A stretch of DNA of 64,000 bases from Natronomonas gomsonensis (GTDB lineage: Archaea; Halobacteriota; Halobacteria; Halobacteriales; Haloarculaceae), in NCBI RefSeq assembly GCF_013391635.1, contig NZ_JACAWU010000001.1, positions 558,001 through 622,000 on the forward strand. Reading direction: 5' to 3'. Below, piece by piece: positions 57,673-64,000 of the stretch. The translations under genes and the position numbers were made by a program. The notes under the pieces were generated by a model. That model saw only the letters and a list, made by a program, of their open reading frames with translations, made no database searches and was not told the origin of the DNA. Every line of letters starts with the position of its first letter. The first letter of the stretch is position 1.

Positions 57673-58608
57673 GTGTCCCACGACGCCGAGGAGTCGAGCG
57701 GAAGCGGCGACGGAAGCGGCGCGTCTGTCGGGAGGGGCGACGGCGCCGACGGCCCCGACTGGCGGCCCATCTTCGGCCACGACGAACCCTACGACGACCA
57801 AATCGACGGCATCGAGACGGCCGTCGAGACGGCCCGCGAGGGCGGCTTCCTCGCCCTGGAGGGCGCCTGCGGCACCGGCAAGACGATGCTGGCACTGACG
57901 GCCGGCATCCACCTCGTTCGCGACCCCGACTCGACGTACGAACGCGTCTTCGTCCTCACGAGCGTCAAACAGCAACTCCGGCAGTTCGAGGAGGACCTCC
58001 GGACAATCAACGGAAACCTGCCCGACGACTGGCACCCGATTTCGGCGATGACGCTCGTCGGAAAGGCCGACGTGTGTCCGTACAACCTCGCGGGCGCCGG
58101 CGGCATCGACGAGACGAACGTCTACGAGCGCTGTGAGGGCCTCCGTGAGCGCACTCGTGGGCTGACCGACGAGACGACCGCCGACTCGCTGGCGGCACAG
58201 GCCCGCAGCCAGCAGGTCGGACTGGGCGATTCCGGAAGCGGCGCTTCGTATCTAGAAGCGGCCAGCGAACCGACGCCGTATCCCCGAGAGATGCCCGAGG
58301 CCGGCGACAGCGGCGTCGAGTACTGCCCCTTCTACGCGCAGTACCTCGCTGACCTACCGGAGGACGGTGACCCCGTCGAGGCCGTCCCCTTCGACCCCAC
58401 CGAGTTGGGCCTCATCGAGAGCGAAGACCTCGTGCAGTTGTCGGCCGGGCACGGGGCCTGCCCCCATTCGGTGATGGGCGCGCTGCTGCCCCACGTCGAG
58501 GTGCTGGTCGGCAACTACTACCACGCGTTTGGTGAATCCGCACACCCCGGCTCACCGGGTACTGAAGGCGGCACAGGGCGGACGAATACACGGCGAGCGG
58601 CTGCGTAA
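57673..58608 (+). pseudogene. Fe-S SF2 helicase (XPD/DinG-like), truncated by element insertion
   Basis: An open frame of 311 residues that matches only the N-terminal part of a haloarchaeal ATP-dependent Fe-S helicase. It has Walker A GACGTGKT (64-71) and four cysteines that would hold the [4Fe-4S] cluster: C135, C154, C218 and C263. Homology-like sequence ends at VGNYYHAF (F286, base 58530), exactly where the family's DEAH-box region should follow. The last 25 residues (GESAHPGSPGTEGGTGRTNT...) are proline/glycine-rich nonsense leading to TAA. The start is GTG at 57673 with TCTTTA about 26 bases upstream. I infer inactivation by insertion; the rest of the gene must lie beyond the window or be lost. 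Confidence 0.75.
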
Positions 58609-58626
58609 CGGCTGTTCTGAGGAGAG

Positions 58627-58650
58627 GCCGACCCCAGCGGGGTGGTCGGC
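58627..58650. repeat. Inverted repeat at the rep start, candidate replication origin
   Basis: GCCGACC (58627-58633) and GGTCGGC (58644-58650) are perfect 7-base arms around CCAGCGGGGT, so a stable cruciform can form right at the rep start codons (GTG at 58642 or 58651). Rolling-circle Reps nick at such hairpins, often beside their own gene. No conserved nick sequence could be verified. Confidence 0.35.
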
Positions 58651-60231
58651 GTGAGGGCGAGCGCAACGGTGACGGCGACGGCCCCCAGCGGCGGTGCTGG
58701 CGTGGCGTCCGCGTCGGTGCCTGAGTCGGTGGTCGACTCGGACCCATGGTTCACTGACCCGAACAGGCTGGCCGGGTGGGCCGACGACGTGGCCGGGTCG
58801 GTGGGGGCGGCCGAGTTGACCGGCTACCCCGACGCCAACGCGCTGGGCGAGGCAGCCGACGTTTACCTAAACCGCAACCGCCGGAAACACCGAGAGCGAC
58901 TCGGCGGGCTGGTAGAGGACCGACCGCTCGGGAGCGACTTGTGGGCGGCTGAAGCCGACGCACGCCTCGCGGCGGTGGCTGGCCCGGCCAGTACCGAGTC
59001 TGAATCAACCACCACTGTCCCAACGGTCACGTGTGTGTCCGACCCCTTCCCGTGGGCGGGCGACCCGACGGCCGACGACAAGACCCGACTGGTGTTGACC
59101 GTCGCCGCGTCGGGTGATTCACCGACCGAACCGGTGCCGCTCGGAGCCACGCTGGACGCGGCGTTCGGCCAGCACACCACCACGGAGTACGCCCGAGCGT
59201 CGTGGGTGGACGAACACCACCCGGAACTGATGGAAAAGTGCGACACTGCGGAGGGGTTGAGCCTCCGAGTGAGCGAGAAGGCGCTCTACTTGTTACGTAC
59301 AGGGATGGGGCGCTCCGGAACGGTCCCGTGGGCGACGCTCCCCGACGCCCACGACGCGGACGGCAACCCACTCCCTGTCCGGCGGTTTCACGAGTATCTC
59401 AGTGGGAGCCGTCGCGGTCTAACAGACGGGCGTCGGGCAATAGCGTTCGACCTGCTCGCTGACAACCGGGCGCGGTTCGTGGACGGACCGGACGAGACGC
59501 CCCGCGTGCTGAAGGGCGGGACGGTCCCGGTAGTTCAACGATTCACCTCCTCACGTGAGGCCGAGCGGCTCCGGTCGGGGCTGGCGGAGGTGTTCAACGC
59601 TGCCGAGGCGGCAGCCCAAGAGTGTACGGTGTGGGTGTTGACGCTCCCGCGTGAGTCGGCCGACGGGCCGTGTCACTCCTACGAGGTGTTTCAGCGGGCG
59701 TGGGAGCGGCTGTACGACCGGCTCCGGTACGCCCGAGACGTGGGGGACGGTCGTGGTTCACTCCCACCCTATTGGTATGTGCAAGAGGCACAGCCACGTT
59801 CCGGCTGGTGCCACCGCCACATCGGCTGGTGTGGCCCAGTGGGCGGGTCGGACCCCGGCCTGTCGACAACCCGGCTTCGACGGTGGTGGGCTGACGCGCT
59901 CCGAGTGCCATCGGGCGAGTGGGTTGTCGTTGACGTGGAAGAGCCGTTCGCACTGGCCGACGGCTGGCACACGGCCGACAGCGACAGTCACACGCACACC
60001 GACGGGGAGGGCAAGCGTGTGCTGGCTGATGGTGGGCCGGGCCTCCGGCACTACTTCGGGAAGGGGCCGCGGCGGCTGGTGGAGGTAGCGAGCGCGGACG
60101 TGGCGACGCTCCGGGAGTGGGCGGCGCGGTGTCGGAGGGGTGAGTCAACCGAGGCACTCAGGGAGCGGGCGTCGTTGGCGTTCATGTGGGCAACCGAGAG
60201 ACGGTTTTACGGAACGGGAGGCGGCCTTTGA
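58642..60231 (+). CDS. Probable HUH rolling-circle replication initiator (Rep)
   Basis: A 529-residue protein with the three HUH-endonuclease motifs in order: strand motif VWVLTLPRES (about 330-339), metal motif GWCHRHIGW with H391 and H393, and motif III RHYFGKGPRR with Y471 and K474. Such proteins nick the plus-strand origin and stay bound through the tyrosine to start rolling-circle replication of plasmids or viruses. The N-terminal 300 residues are unlike classic small Reps and may add DNA-binding functions. No ATG is available; GTG at 58642 or 58651 must serve. It is convergent with the element's helicase. Confidence 0.62.
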   Translation: MVGVRASATVTATAPSGGAGVASASVPESVVDSDPWFTDPNRLAGWADDVAGSVGAAELTGYPDANALGEAADVYLNRNRRKHRERLGGLVEDRPLGSDLWAAEADARLAAVAGPASTESESTTTVPTVTCVSDPFPWAGDPTADDKTRLVLTVAASGDSPTEPVPLGATLDAAFGQHTTTEYARASWVDEHHPELMEKCDTAEGLSLRVSEKALYLLRTGMGRSGTVPWATLPDAHDADGNPLPVRRFHEYLSGSRRGLTDGRRAIAFDLLADNRARFVDGPDETPRVLKGGTVPVVQRFTSSREAERLRSGLAEVFNAAEAAAQECTVWVLTLPRESADGPCHSYEVFQRAWERLYDRLRYARDVGDGRGSLPPYWYVQEAQPRSGWCHRHIGWCGPVGGSDPGLSTTRLRRWWADALRVPSGEWVVVDVEEPFALADGWHTADSDSHTHTDGEGKRVLADGGPGLRHYFGKGPRRLVEVASADVATLREWAARCRRGESTEALRERASLAFMWATERRFYGTGGGL

Positions 60232-60270
60232 CCCTGCCACAAACGGCCAGCGGTGACGGGCTGACGCCCG

Positions 60271-60291
60271 CGACCCCTTCGCTTCGGGTCG
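60271..60291. terminator. Hairpin between convergent rep and helicase genes
   Basis: CGACCC (60271-60276) pairs with GGGTCG (60286-60291) across a 9-base loop. It lies in the 73-base gap between the ends of the convergent rep and helicase genes, so it could act as a two-way terminator; no T-run is present on either side. Confidence 0.35.
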
Positions 60292-60304
60292 AACGCCCCC
60301 GGCG

Positions 60305-61957
60305 TTAGCGATGGATGGCGTCCGTGAACCAGTCCGGCAGGTCCACCTTCTGCAGCACGTCGAAGAACGATGCGTCGAGGACGTAGTACGCGCAGTCGTC
60401 GTCCGGGGCGCGAACCCCGCGCCCAACGGACTGCTGTATGTCCTGAGCGGTGGTTTCGTAGTACCAGTCCCATGCGTTGCGTTCATCCATCATGTATCGG
60501 GTCCGCGGGTCGCCCATGTGTGGGTACGGTACTTTGACGAGGGCCTGCCACCGGCAGTCCTCATACGGCAGGTCTACACCATCGGTGGCGGCGGGCGAAA
60601 AAAACATATCGTCGTCCGAGCGCAACCATCGTTCAATCTGCTCGGACAAGTCGGTATCCTCGTATGAGTTGTGGACGCGGCTATTTCGCCGAAACTCCCG
60701 CCCGAGTTGCTGTGCTCGGTCGTAACTGGCGGTGTGAATTAGCCCCTTTTCGCCGCGGTGTTGGTGCGACAGTGATTCGAGCATCTTCACGACTTCGTCA
60801 GCGTGTGTGTCCCAGCCTCCGGACGACATTTTACCGACAACCTTGTCGGTGTAGATAGGCCGGTTTTCCGCTGGAAAAGGCATCGGATACTGGACGACAT
60901 GCGTCTCAGCCGGGTCCAACCCCAACCGCGTAACCCACCGGTCGGGGTCCGAAGCGAAAGGCATCGTTGCCGTCGACAACACCCGTTTGTCAGCCCGGGA
61001 CCAGACGTGTTCCTGTAAGAACTTGTCCACGTCTACTGGCTGTACGTGGATGCTGTACCGTACGTTATTCCCGACAGTCGTTTCTTCGCGGCTGACGACC
61101 CACGGGCGGCCCTTATCCACCTGCATCTTTGCCCACTTGAACTTCCGCTTGAAGTTGCGGCACGCCTGTACCTCTAAAGACTCCTCCTCCGGCACCATCC
61201 CTGTGGACCCCTTGTCGCTGATATACGAAACCGCTCGGTCGAAAGTCCGGTTCAGCTCCATTCGTACGTCGTCAAGTTCGGTCACATCGTCGTCTGGCAG
61301 CTCCCCGACCTCTTGGTCCACCTGTGCGAATACTCGGTCTGGTAACGTGTGCGGCGAAACTTTGAATCCGGCGTGGAGTGACGCGACTTGCCCCTCCAAC
61401 TTGTGACACTCATCCACCACCAACAGCTCTCGGTTCCCGAATGAAACGCGTTTGTTATCCTCGGTTGAGACCGGCAGATAGCCGTCCACGATTAGATAAG
61501 AGAACGTGATGGATGCGACCGACGCTGACATAGCATCCTCCTTCCGATTCCAGTAAGTGCAGTTGGCCGTGTTTATGCAGGATTGCTCGTCCGAACGGTT
61601 CACCGGGCAGTCCTTGCAATCGTAAGTCTCCTCGTCGTCCGTGGTCGCTAAACAGTTGTAGTCAACTCGGCTTCGAAGCGTCGAATAGTACGGATTCAGG
61701 TCTGCATCGCGTTCCAACTGGGTCCGAAGGGCCTTCTGAGGCGTCGTGATGAACGCGTCACCGGACTGCCGAGCAAGCGCCACGTTGATAGGCGACTTGC
61801 CGATACCTGTCGGCAGATTCAGCACCACGTTGCTCACTTCCTCTTTTGACCATAACGCGTTCGCCGCCTCATGGAGTGCCGCCCGCTGATATGGGCGATA
61901 ATCACCACCCTCGTAGAAGTCAAACACCTCATCTGGGTCCGGTCTGTCGGCACTCAT
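60305..61957 (-). CDS. Fe-S cluster DinG/XPD-type DNA helicase of the element
   Basis: A 550-residue superfamily 2 helicase. Walker A LPTGIGKS covers residues 48-55, and DECH is at 182-185. Between them lie five cysteines (C102, C114, C117, C127, C133: YNCLATT, YDCKDC, SCINTANC), which can hold the [4Fe-4S] cluster typical of XPD/DinG/FancJ. The C-terminal helicase motifs include STATMPF, MFFSPAATDGVDLPYEDC and QDIQQSVGRGVRAPDDD (motif VI). It probably unwinds DNA 5' to 3' during replication of the element. Its composition is less GC-rich than the chromosomal genes. Confidence 0.85.
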   Translation of the reverse strand: MSADRPDPDEVFDFYEGGDYRPYQRAALHEAANALWSKEEVSNVVLNLPTGIGKSPINVALARQSGDAFITTPQKALRTQLERDADLNPYYSTLRSRVDYNCLATTDDEETYDCKDCPVNRSDEQSCINTANCTYWNRKEDAMSASVASITFSYLIVDGYLPVSTEDNKRVSFGNRELLVVDECHKLEGQVASLHAGFKVSPHTLPDRVFAQVDQEVGELPDDDVTELDDVRMELNRTFDRAVSYISDKGSTGMVPEEESLEVQACRNFKRKFKWAKMQVDKGRPWVVSREETTVGNNVRYSIHVQPVDVDKFLQEHVWSRADKRVLSTATMPFASDPDRWVTRLGLDPAETHVVQYPMPFPAENRPIYTDKVVGKMSSGGWDTHADEVVKMLESLSHQHRGEKGLIHTASYDRAQQLGREFRRNSRVHNSYEDTDLSEQIERWLRSDDDMFFSPAATDGVDLPYEDCRWQALVKVPYPHMGDPRTRYMMDERNAWDWYYETTAQDIQQSVGRGVRAPDDDCAYYVLDASFFDVLQKVDLPDWFTDAIHR

Positions 61958-62155
61958 GCGGGCACATCCGCTTGAATGTAGAGCGTCGGCATAAGGACGT
62001 GGTCACCGTGGCGGAAGTGAAATGCGCCCCTGCACGATGGGAGTACGTGGGTGTCGCCCAATACACGGCCTTCCCGGCGTCCATCACCGATGGGGCGACG
62101 GTCTGCACCCGTGGGGGCAATACAATGGGCCGACCCCCTCCGGGCGGCTGACCCG

Positions 62156-62659
62156 CTACTCGTCCCAGTCATTAGAGTTCAGCACGCCAGCCCGGTAGAG
62201 TTGGGTGTAGAAACCGACTAGGAGGACACCTGCCAAGACGGTCATTATACCGGGTACGAGGCGATATATGGGGTTGGAAACCTGTACGGTAAGAGCCATC
62301 GCCTGTGCCACTCCGACGAAGGCAAGCACGAGCGTCAGGCGGGTTACAGCGCGGTTTGAGCGGAGACTCCGTTGCTCCTGACGACGTTCCCGGGCATAGG
62401 AGTACCCCTTACCTGTGAGTTCCAGTTCGTTTCGAGTTGGGTCGTCATCATCGCCCAAAATGAGTGCTGTTCTCTCGGCGAGGCCCATACTAACCAGCGT
62501 TTTTGAGGCAGTTGCAATCGCCTCCTCGGAGAGGCCGGTTTGCTCGACTAAATTCACCTCTGGGTCAAGTTGTGGTCCGTCGCCGTGGCGGGGAAATTCT
62601 CCCCGTCCGCCCATCTCGTAGAGCGTTTCCAGCACCTCCTGCCACGGGTTATCTCGCAT
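62156..62659 (-). CDS. Winged-helix plus two-span membrane protein of the element
   Basis: A 167-residue protein. Residues 1-95 look like a winged-helix fold (WQEVLETLYEMG, EQTGLSEEAIATASKTLVSM, LELTGKGYSYARERRQEQ). Two hydrophobic segments follow (TRLTLVLAFVGVAQAMALTV; LVPGIMTVLAGVLLVGFYTQ). Such membrane-tethered HTH proteins are frequent in haloarchaeal plasmids and proviruses, but their function is unproven. The ATG at 62659 shares a 150-base divergent region with the HalOD1 gene. Confidence 0.65.
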   Translation of the reverse strand: MRDNPWQEVLETLYEMGGRGEFPRHGDGPQLDPEVNLVEQTGLSEEAIATASKTLVSMGLAERTALILGDDDDPTRNELELTGKGYSYARERRQEQRSLRSNRAVTRLTLVLAFVGVAQAMALTVQVSNPIYRLVPGIMTVLAGVLLVGFYTQLYRAGVLNSNDWDE

Positions 62660-62809
62660 AGAATCACATCAGGGAGCGCCGACTTAAAACGCGGCCAACG
62701 TTGGAGATATGCAATCGAGATTCAGTGGAATAACGGACAGTACCGTCGTAAATACGCAGGCGAATCCAAACTGATTTTTGCAATGGTGAGAATTGGCATC
62801 CGTTGAGTG

Positions 62810-63037
62810 ATGCTCATAGAATCACTTATCGGGGCAATTGCGGACGCTAAGGGCAAAGAGCCGGATGAACTGGAGTTCGTTCTCGAAGACCACATTTCGG
62901 CGGAGGCGATTCAGCAGTTGGATGACCATGCGAGCGAATCATGGACGCTTCAGTTCGAACTCCCGAATCACACCGTACAGGTTGGAGGTGACGGTACCAT
63001 CCTCGTAGACGGCACAGAGGAACAGATGTGCCCCTGA
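62810..63037 (+). CDS. Stand-alone HalOD1 domain protein
   Basis: A 75-residue protein that consists of one HalOD1 output domain: ESLIGAIADAKGKEPDELEF, the central helix SAEAIQQLDDH, and the strand pair WTLQFELPNHTVQVGGDGTI. In haloarchaea this domain ends signalling proteins or stands alone; its biochemical role is unknown. The ATG at 62810 is chosen over an adjoining GTG at 62807. An AT-rich stretch (CTGATTTTTGCAATG) about 30 bases upstream may be its promoter. Confidence 0.75.
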   Translation: MLIESLIGAIADAKGKEPDELEFVLEDHISAEAIQQLDDHASESWTLQFELPNHTVQVGGDGTILVDGTEEQMCP

Positions 63038-63046
63038 ACGCCAATT

Positions 63047-63105
63047 CTGTTGGAACAGCGGACCCATTGTGTCTGTCACTCGACGGCCACTAAGAATTCC
63101 AACAG
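63047..63105. terminator. Long inverted repeat between convergent element genes
   Basis: CTGTTGGAA (63047-63055) and TTCCAACAG (63097-63105) are perfect 9-base arms with a 41-base spacer, located between the end of the HalOD1 gene and the end of the next, convergent gene. The left arm is itself within the palindrome CTGTTGGAACAG. It may end both transcripts or mark a recombination or processing site. Confidence 0.35.
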
Positions 63106-63132
63106 GCCCATACATAGCGAATCGTCCGCCGT

Positions 63133-63630
63133 CTAAAACGCCGACAACAGTAGACGCAAGAAATTAGCCTCGCTCTCGTCCGGCTTCCGTGGAGCGACCC
63201 GCCGACCCTCCATCGAACTGGGCGCTTTGTACTCCCAGTCGTGGTCGATAAACTCCGCCAACTCGGGGTTGATGAGTTGGGCCGAGGACACCCAGTACGT
63301 CTTGCCTTCGACCTCCAGCCCGGTCATCTCCTCGAACGGCAGAAGTTTGGTCCCTTTCGGGATGAACAGTTCTTGGGAACACCGGAGCAGAATCGGGTCC
63401 GATAGGTTCGGGTCAACGCCGTAGATGAGTTCGTACTCGGATTTTTTCTTCCCAGTTGGCCACCTATCCGCGAAGATAACGCTAATTTCATCGCTCAAGT
63501 CCTCCCGAGTGTATCCTTCGGCTTCGTAATCGTCCGAATCGGTGTAGTCGGTATGCCGCTCCCCACGCTCCGTTGAGCCGTCCTCTGATGCCTCCGACGA
63601 CCCCCCAGTGAACTTGTCAAAGAGTCCCAT
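63133..63630 (-). CDS. Unrecognised acidic protein of the element
   Basis: A 165-residue protein. A charged low-complexity N-terminal third (MGLFDKFTGGSSEASEDGST, then an E/D/Y-rich stretch) is followed by a folded part with ISVIFADRWPTGKKKSEYEL, LLRCSQELFIPKGTKLLPFE and KTYWVSSAQLINPELAEFID. It has no membrane span or known motif, and I do not recognise a family. Codon use with full-length acidic frame and an ATG start suggest a real gene. It is convergent with the HalOD1 gene. Confidence 0.6.
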   Translation of the reverse strand: MGLFDKFTGGSSEASEDGSTERGERHTDYTDSDDYEAEGYTREDLSDEISVIFADRWPTGKKKSEYELIYGVDPNLSDPILLRCSQELFIPKGTKLLPFEEMTGLEVEGKTYWVSSAQLINPELAEFIDHDWEYKAPSSMEGRRVAPRKPDESEANFLRLLLSAF

Positions 63631-63946
63631 TGGGCCGCATGACTGTCCCTCGGACCATCAAACTTTGTCGTTGAGCCGACCGCTGGAACACCTGAAAACC
63701 CGAGCGGATGGAGCCGCCCGGATTCAAACAAGAACTTCGATGTGGCACCATTGGAACTGAATGAGTCCAACAGAGCGGGTCGTTGTGGGAACAACCCAGT
63801 CAAACCCACGGGCTATTTCGACTTACGTGTATCGACACATACCAACTTACAGATATACTGTTTCTTTGTGCCATACAAAGGTTTTTGAGTGAAATACTCT
63901 TTTTCTGATACGGAGTATTAAGACCATAGACCACCCATAGTCGGGT
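63631..63946. other. AT-rich intergenic region of the element with promoter-like and palindromic sequence
   Basis: These 316 bases hold no convincing gene. The left part has mixed composition with GTTGT/ACAAC repeats near 63783. The right part (about 63825-63946) is the most AT-rich stretch in the window and contains GTGT-ATCG-ACAC and an AATACTC/GAGTATT pair. It looks like a regulatory region for the gene starting at 63947 and, to the left, for the gene starting at 63630. Confidence 0.5.
63893..63919. promoter_or_regulatory. Inverted repeat, likely operator of the last gene
   Basis: AATACTC (63893-63899) and GAGTATT (63913-63919) are perfect 7-base arms. The right arm (AGTATTAAG) also looks like a TATA box about 28 bases before the ATG at 63947, so a dimeric regulator bound here would block that promoter. 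Confidence 0.45.
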
Positions 63947-64000
63947 ATGGCACCTAACGGTACAGACGACGAGAGCGACGAGCGCAAGACCTACGACGAG
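63947..64000 (+). CDS. Start of an unrecognised protein (partial)
   Basis: An ATG at 63947 opens a frame that runs to the window edge: 18 acidic residues (MAPNGTDDESDERKTYDE). The strong upstream TATA-like AGTATTAAG and the inverted repeat around it support a real gene, perhaps a regulator or partition protein of the element; too little is visible to name it. Confidence 0.5.
   Translation, partial: MAPNGTDDESDERKTYDE

Follow-up and report, generated by a model that had tools for sequence, protein, structure and literature searches.

The Natronomonas chromosome examined here harbors a gene for a Rad3/XPD-type iron-sulfur helicase that is split by a plasmid-like element of 9.7 kb, and the element very probably entered through strand exchange by a tyrosine recombinase. 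With the core sequence found at both of its ends, the element extends from position 58518 to 68242 (C1:616518-626242), and the part from 58518 to 64000 lies within the window, the 64,000-nucleotide stretch of DNA that was analysed. A window position is that on contig C1 minus 558000, and some features are given in the numbering of locus L006. The insertion provides a clean case of an archaeal element whose target is a protein gene and not a tRNA gene. It is unusual in that it falls mid-gene and leaves the gene unrepaired, in that the shared core is very short, and in that the integrase is a fusion of what its relatives encode as two neighbouring genes.

The 5' half of the host gene is chromosomal DNA and occupies positions 57673 to 58526 on the forward strand, where it runs up to the codons for NYYHA. 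It is 94-96% identical to the intact orthologs of sibling Natronomonas genomes, and the similarity stops at 58526. A sequence-only reading of this DNA had placed the loss of homology at about 58530, just before the DEAH region, in good agreement with the measured break and with a split that precedes the DEAH box. The same reading had recognized Walker A and all four Fe-S cysteines in the frame from 57673, and these are indeed present as GACGTGKT and within VCPYN, YERCEG, EYCPFY and GACPHS. The frame is 311 amino acids long (57673-58608) and closes with a stop codon at 58606-58608, rather than at 58660 as had been given. Its last part, from 58527 to 58608, is element DNA translated in the helicase frame, which appends the tail FGESAHPGSPGTEGGTGRTNTRRAAA and the stop. 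The 311-residue fragment alone has no Pfam match, whereas the intact, full-length ortholog matches both DEAD_2 and Helicase_C_2, as well as archaeal XPD structures. In the relatives of the interrupted gene, Walker A, the four Fe-S cysteines, the DEAH box and Helicase_C_2 are all found within one frame.

The C-terminal half occupies C1:626234-627806 (window 68234-69806), on the contig of the first half and 9.7 kb further downstream. This is past the right edge, which is where it had been suggested that it should be sought. When the 3' half of the sibling G001 gene was used to search the genome, one strong match was returned, at C1:626236-627755 on the same strand and with 94% identity. Two siblings align continuously across the site, whereas the query breaks at L006:5526 and resumes at L006:15234, with 9707 bp of unmatched DNA between the helicase flanks. 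The sibling alignments of the two flanks overlap by 9 bp, CTACCACGC, and joining the flanks in silico yields an open frame of 805 codons. The two ends and the empty site thus share an identical core, the flanks are collinear with the two siblings, and no host DNA has been lost. With the other half 9.7 kb downstream and the gene uninterrupted and free of the insert in the siblings, the proposal that an Fe-S helicase gene had been cut by an integrated element is borne out; relatives with an equally short helicase, or a missing C-terminal remnant, would have spoken against it, and neither was encountered.

The helicase gene is unsplit in all 80 of the named haloarchaeal loci retained by the search, and these loci cover nearly the whole protein. 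The 15 bases coding for GNYYH read GGNAACTACTACCAC in 71 of the 80, and the target stretch is therefore very well conserved. No other inserted element was found in the helicase gene among 30 relatives, several of which are draft genomes with partial matches only; where a relative has one full match, the gene is not split.

The comparison with the empty site of two siblings defines the attL core as the 9-bp direct repeat at 58518-58526, of which CTACCAC (58518-58524) is the presumed 7-bp overlap. It lies inside the interval 58515-58545, in which a repeat had been anticipated. The attR core consists of the same 9 bp at C1:626234-626242 (window 68234-68242), and the direct repeat sits within conserved codons for NYYHAF. 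The left terminal inverted repeat, GCGTTTGG-TGAATCC-GCACACCC, is found at 58525-58547 and has its partner at C1:626211-626233. As inverted repeats the two ends agree at 20 of 23 positions (P ~1.6e-9 at fixed register), a match that was seen 0 times in a control of two million random pairs. Joined in the order of an excised circle, the ends read GGGTGTGC-GAATTAG-CCAAACGC-CTACCAC-GCGTTTGG-TGAATCC-GCACACCC. Here, the inner half-sites form perfect 8-bp inverted repeats that flank the 7-bp spacer CTACCAC, and the outer arms are also perfect 8-bp inverted repeats, placed at equal distances. A 7-bp spacer between inverted half-sites is canonical for tyrosine recombinases. On each strand of the genome the pattern GGTGTGC-N7-CCAAACGC has a single occurrence, which falls at an element end, and it is absent from 390 other haloarchaeal genomes. 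Viral contigs gave matches to the element ends in 22 cases, with a single match in each, and these were judged to be due to chance, as was the one lead among inverted ends near integrase relatives, which falls inside a KH-domain-like gene in L064.

A palindrome, CCCGG-CTCA-CCGGG, is found just inside the left end, and at the corresponding place at the right end there is another, CTCGGG-CTGC-CCCGAG. The former had been suggested as part of the attachment site; the palindrome is real, but it lies at 58546-58559 and not at 58556-58569, and it was rejected as the att core as it is wholly inside the element, the core being CTACCAC(GC) at 58518-58526. A tRNA gene as the target was likewise rejected, there being none in the window or the locus.

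These features suggest a route of entry. The element would form a circle whose attP, GGGTGTGC-N7-CCAAACGC-CTACCAC-GCGTTTGG-N7-GCACACCC, combines inverted half-sites, a 7-bp spacer and outer inverted arms, and the chromosome would offer an identical stretch of 7 bp (or 9 bp, counting GC) within the N-Y-Y-H-A codons. The integrase of the element would exchange strands over CTACCAC, leaving a copy at each end. The gene is divided before the DEAH box into a first part, with Walker A, the Fe-S cysteines and a tail and stop coded by the element, and a second part with DEAH and the C-terminal helicase domain. The shortness of the shared identity, 9 bp or only 7 if GC is a chance match, counts against this explanation, as identities of 40-50 bp are usual for the att sites of suicidal archaeal integrases and 13-14 bp are found in SNJ2 (PMC8371274).

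The likely agent of the exchange is a tyrosine recombinase of 573 amino acids, which matches Pfam Phage_integrase (PF00589) above the cut-off; its gene, at L006:13202-14923, is 311 bp away from the right core. Residues R364, K434, H510, R513 and Y551, the presumed catalytic set, do not vary when the protein is aligned with 19 relatives. In a structure model, the C-terminal part matches Xer, Cre, lambda Int and Tn1549 Int, which supports a tyrosine-recombinase fold for this part, and the N-terminal part is of low confidence. The frame lies whole and unsplit within the element, rather than being divided by its own att site as in suicidal integrases of the SSV type.

The remainder of the element has a plasmid-like content. 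A frame at 58642-60231 on the forward strand encodes a probable HUH (rolling-circle type) Rep of 529 amino acids, with an uncertain start codon and the motifs VLTLP, WxHRH[IV] and HYFGK, and the element may replicate by means of it. The earlier observation that Rep-type and other element genes follow directly holds, with the Rep-like frame beginning 34 bp past the truncated stop. The motifs are largely conserved in two distant relatives, and such distant Rep relatives occur in only 2 other of 391 genomes; the protein has no family match and no counterpart in the phages and plasmids searched, and its fold model is weak (pLDDT 45, no significant fold match). This Rep-like gene points in the same direction as the truncated helicase, at a distance of 34 bp (58527-58642), so that the host helicase promoter could drive rep when the element is integrated. 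On the reverse strand, positions 60305-61957 encode a halovirus-type Rad3/DinG-like helicase of 550 amino acids, with Walker A and a DECH box (PHROG 2488, E=1e-103; Helicase_C_2). There follow, on the same strand, a 167-residue protein (62156-62659) without a family match, which by eye has an apparent winged-helix-like N part and a hydrophobic C part; on the forward strand, a small HalOD1-domain protein of 76 amino acids (62807-63037; PF18545, E=1.3e-9); on the reverse strand, a 165-residue protein without a family match (63133-63630); and on the forward strand, from 63947, the start of an acidic protein of 207 amino acids that continues past the window to 64570 (L006:10947-11570). The element also encodes an Arc-like RHH regulator, and four of its proteins are without a clear family. 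Its G+C content is 49-64% over most of its length compared with 63-69% in the flanks, and is not lower at the rep end. The genome holds no second copy.

Capsid, terminase and spike families have no match in the element, in which the helicase is the only viral-type component. A relaxase with a coupling protein or type IV secretion likewise gave no match, the Rep-like protein having HUH-type motifs only, and family searches recognized neither a DDE transposase nor Cas1, as a casposon would carry. Since no gene for capsid, terminase, conjugation, DDE transposition or Cas1 was recognized, integrated plasmid is the best label.

The helicase of the element is 41% identical over 97% of its length to HRTV/HCTV helicases, and it has almost no direct similarity to the interrupted helicase (best E=0.006), of which it is therefore not a copy. 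An element that breaks a Rad3-type helicase gene thus brings a virus-type Rad3 helicase of its own (60305-61957), which possibly replaces the lost host enzyme. It also resembles the DinG associated with type IV CRISPR systems (PADLOC, E=5.5e-49), and no CRISPR protein was recognized in the element.

Other accounts of the locus can be weighed against the same evidence. An assembly artefact or a naturally short helicase is exceedingly improbable: we found no point in its favour, and it is opposed by the exact homologous break, the duplicated core, the inverted ends, the integrase at one end and the intact gene in relatives, with the empty-site comparison refuting a naturally short protein. Cut-and-paste transposition by a DDE-type enzyme would explain the ends as 23-bp terminal inverted repeats beside a 7-bp target duplication, and perfect 8-bp inverted tips adjoining a 7-bp direct repeat are a transposon signature that such a transposase could produce. 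It is nonetheless very unlikely, given that the element has no DDE transposase or Cas1 match, is present as a single copy with ends that are missing from the 390 other genomes, and carries a complete tyrosine recombinase adjoining one end, for which the 7-bp spacer is equally canonical.

A variant of the preferred explanation, which leaves the insertion itself undisputed and which we regard as a real though lesser possibility, is an element of relaxed specificity, similar to Tn916/Tn1549, that inserted opportunistically into the helicase gene. The shared sequence of only 7-9 bp, the ~325 CTACCAC sites per genome (an extrapolated figure) and the single occupied site known are all in keeping with this. 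The empty chromosomal site agrees with the left attP half-site at 3/8 positions and with the right one at 5/8, and its half-site score is above the mean of background CTACCAC sites, yet not unique; with a match of only 8/16, a dedicated site remains putative. Against opportunistic insertion, the 7 bp found at each end are those of the empty site, whereas spacer mismatches are tolerated by Tn916-like elements, and the site belongs to a coding motif that is strongly conserved, as is expected of a durable attB. A regulated, reversible interruption, in which excision would restore the helicase in some of the cells or some of the chromosome copies, appears unlikely. The two halves contain neither stops nor frameshifts, their omega values against the nearest sibling are 0.056 (first half) and 0.065 (second half), and their lineage-specific amino-acid changes (3 and 5) are close in number to those of the sister lineage (3 and 3). 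The absence of decay means that the insertion is recent or that excision restores the gene with a frequency sufficient to maintain it, but a merely recent insertion predicts the same pattern, and no excisionase was recognized in the element.

The first half of the broken helicase gene keeps its own start codon. The second is preceded immediately by a stop (TAG CCA AAC GCC TAC), and the earliest codon from which it could start is a TTG 46 bp in, just before the DEAH box, so that no product can have both Walker A and DEAH. Neither piece can function as a helicase. The other Rad3-type paralog of the genome, at C1:698984, has an open frame of 726 codons with no stops; of these two Rad3-type helicases, the insertion has naturally knocked out one. 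Strains of H. volcanii that lack either or both rad3 genes were made (PMC12873603), which renders a null allele plausible; in that species the G4 signal rose when rad3b was lost, but not when rad3a was (PMC12873603).

Tyrosine-recombinase conjugative transposons of the Tn916/Tn1549 family have inverted ends, a short spacer and an integrase at one end. The element described here shares these features, and the Tn1549 integrase is one of many structures that its integrase model matches; unlike that family, it has no recognized conjugation genes, and the spacer at its two ends does not differ from that of the empty site. Archaeal att sites are found mostly in tRNA genes, as the sequence-only reading had assumed in calling a protein-gene target less usual; protein-gene sites are documented, with recombination there being putative (PMC8371274). 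They include BJ1 in a gene for HMG-CoA reductase, Msmi-Pro1 and NitGar-E6 (PMC8371274), which likewise combine a tyrosine recombinase with a protein-coding target. In contrast to these, the exact empty site, the core and the symmetric attP are defined here, the target gene is a different one that is cut mid-way and not rebuilt, and the element is plasmid-like with no virion genes recognized. SNJ2-type elements (PMC8371274) resemble it in being haloarchaeal, with an unsplit tyrosine integrase and a very short att identity of 13-14 bp in SNJ2. However, SNJ2 uses a tRNA gene, whereas the present element has a core of 7-9 bp in a protein gene and no recognized virion protein. The helicase of the element resembles the Rad3-related helicases of HRTV-5, HCTV-7 and other haloarchaeal tailed viruses, but is carried by a small, non-viral element. 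A search of an open-access library turned up no description of the element and none of an insertion into this helicase gene, most subscription journals being outside that coverage.

A 2021 review asks whether protein-gene targets have the dyad symmetry needed by tyrosine recombinases (PMC8371274). The present locus is an exactly delimited case of strong dyad symmetry in attP and little in the protein-gene attB. Both sites are known base by base, so that short oligonucleotides can be used to put the review's question to the test. A broader suggestion, which we offer as speculative and improbable as a whole, is that there is a lineage of haloarchaeal plasmid elements that employ an integrase with fused tandem core-binding domains and a fully symmetric attP with a 7-bp core to insert at the conserved NYYH codons of the host Rad3 gene, knock it out and bring in a virus-type Rad3, possibly in a reversible manner.

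The integrase also shows a fusion to a core-binding protein that its relatives encode separately. The integrase part is 34-40% identical to these relatives; close ones are lacking in the genome contigs, viral contigs and phages searched, with only distant ones on two plasmids. In the neighbourhoods of the best relatives, the first ~160 residues form a separate frame directly upstream, often after an RHH gene. The N-terminal part is homologous to the integrase's own core-binding domain (profile comparison, probability 97.5%, E=5.8e-12; in L064, also a weak SAM-like Pfam match), and the integrase is therefore a fusion with two core-binding domains. A module of RHH gene, stand-alone core-binding-domain protein and tyrosine recombinase surrounds most of the 20 best integrase relatives (L063-L082), and here spans L006:12606-14923 with its last two genes fused. 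The haloarchaeal module often has its RHH gene upstream too, but in the best 20 neighbourhoods the core-binding domain was mapped as a separate frame, whereas here it is part of the 573-residue integrase. A tRNA gene is nearby in only 1 of the 20 neighbourhoods, a hint rather than proof that the integrase family is tRNA-independent. Two relatives are found in G002, another Natronomonas, whose siblings are too diverged to define targets. In L075, L077 and L082, a convergent protein gene lies downstream of the integrase relative, with 20-35 bp between the ends of the two genes; this gene is MutS-like by eye in L082 and tandemly repeated in L077, and such gene ends are possible target sites.
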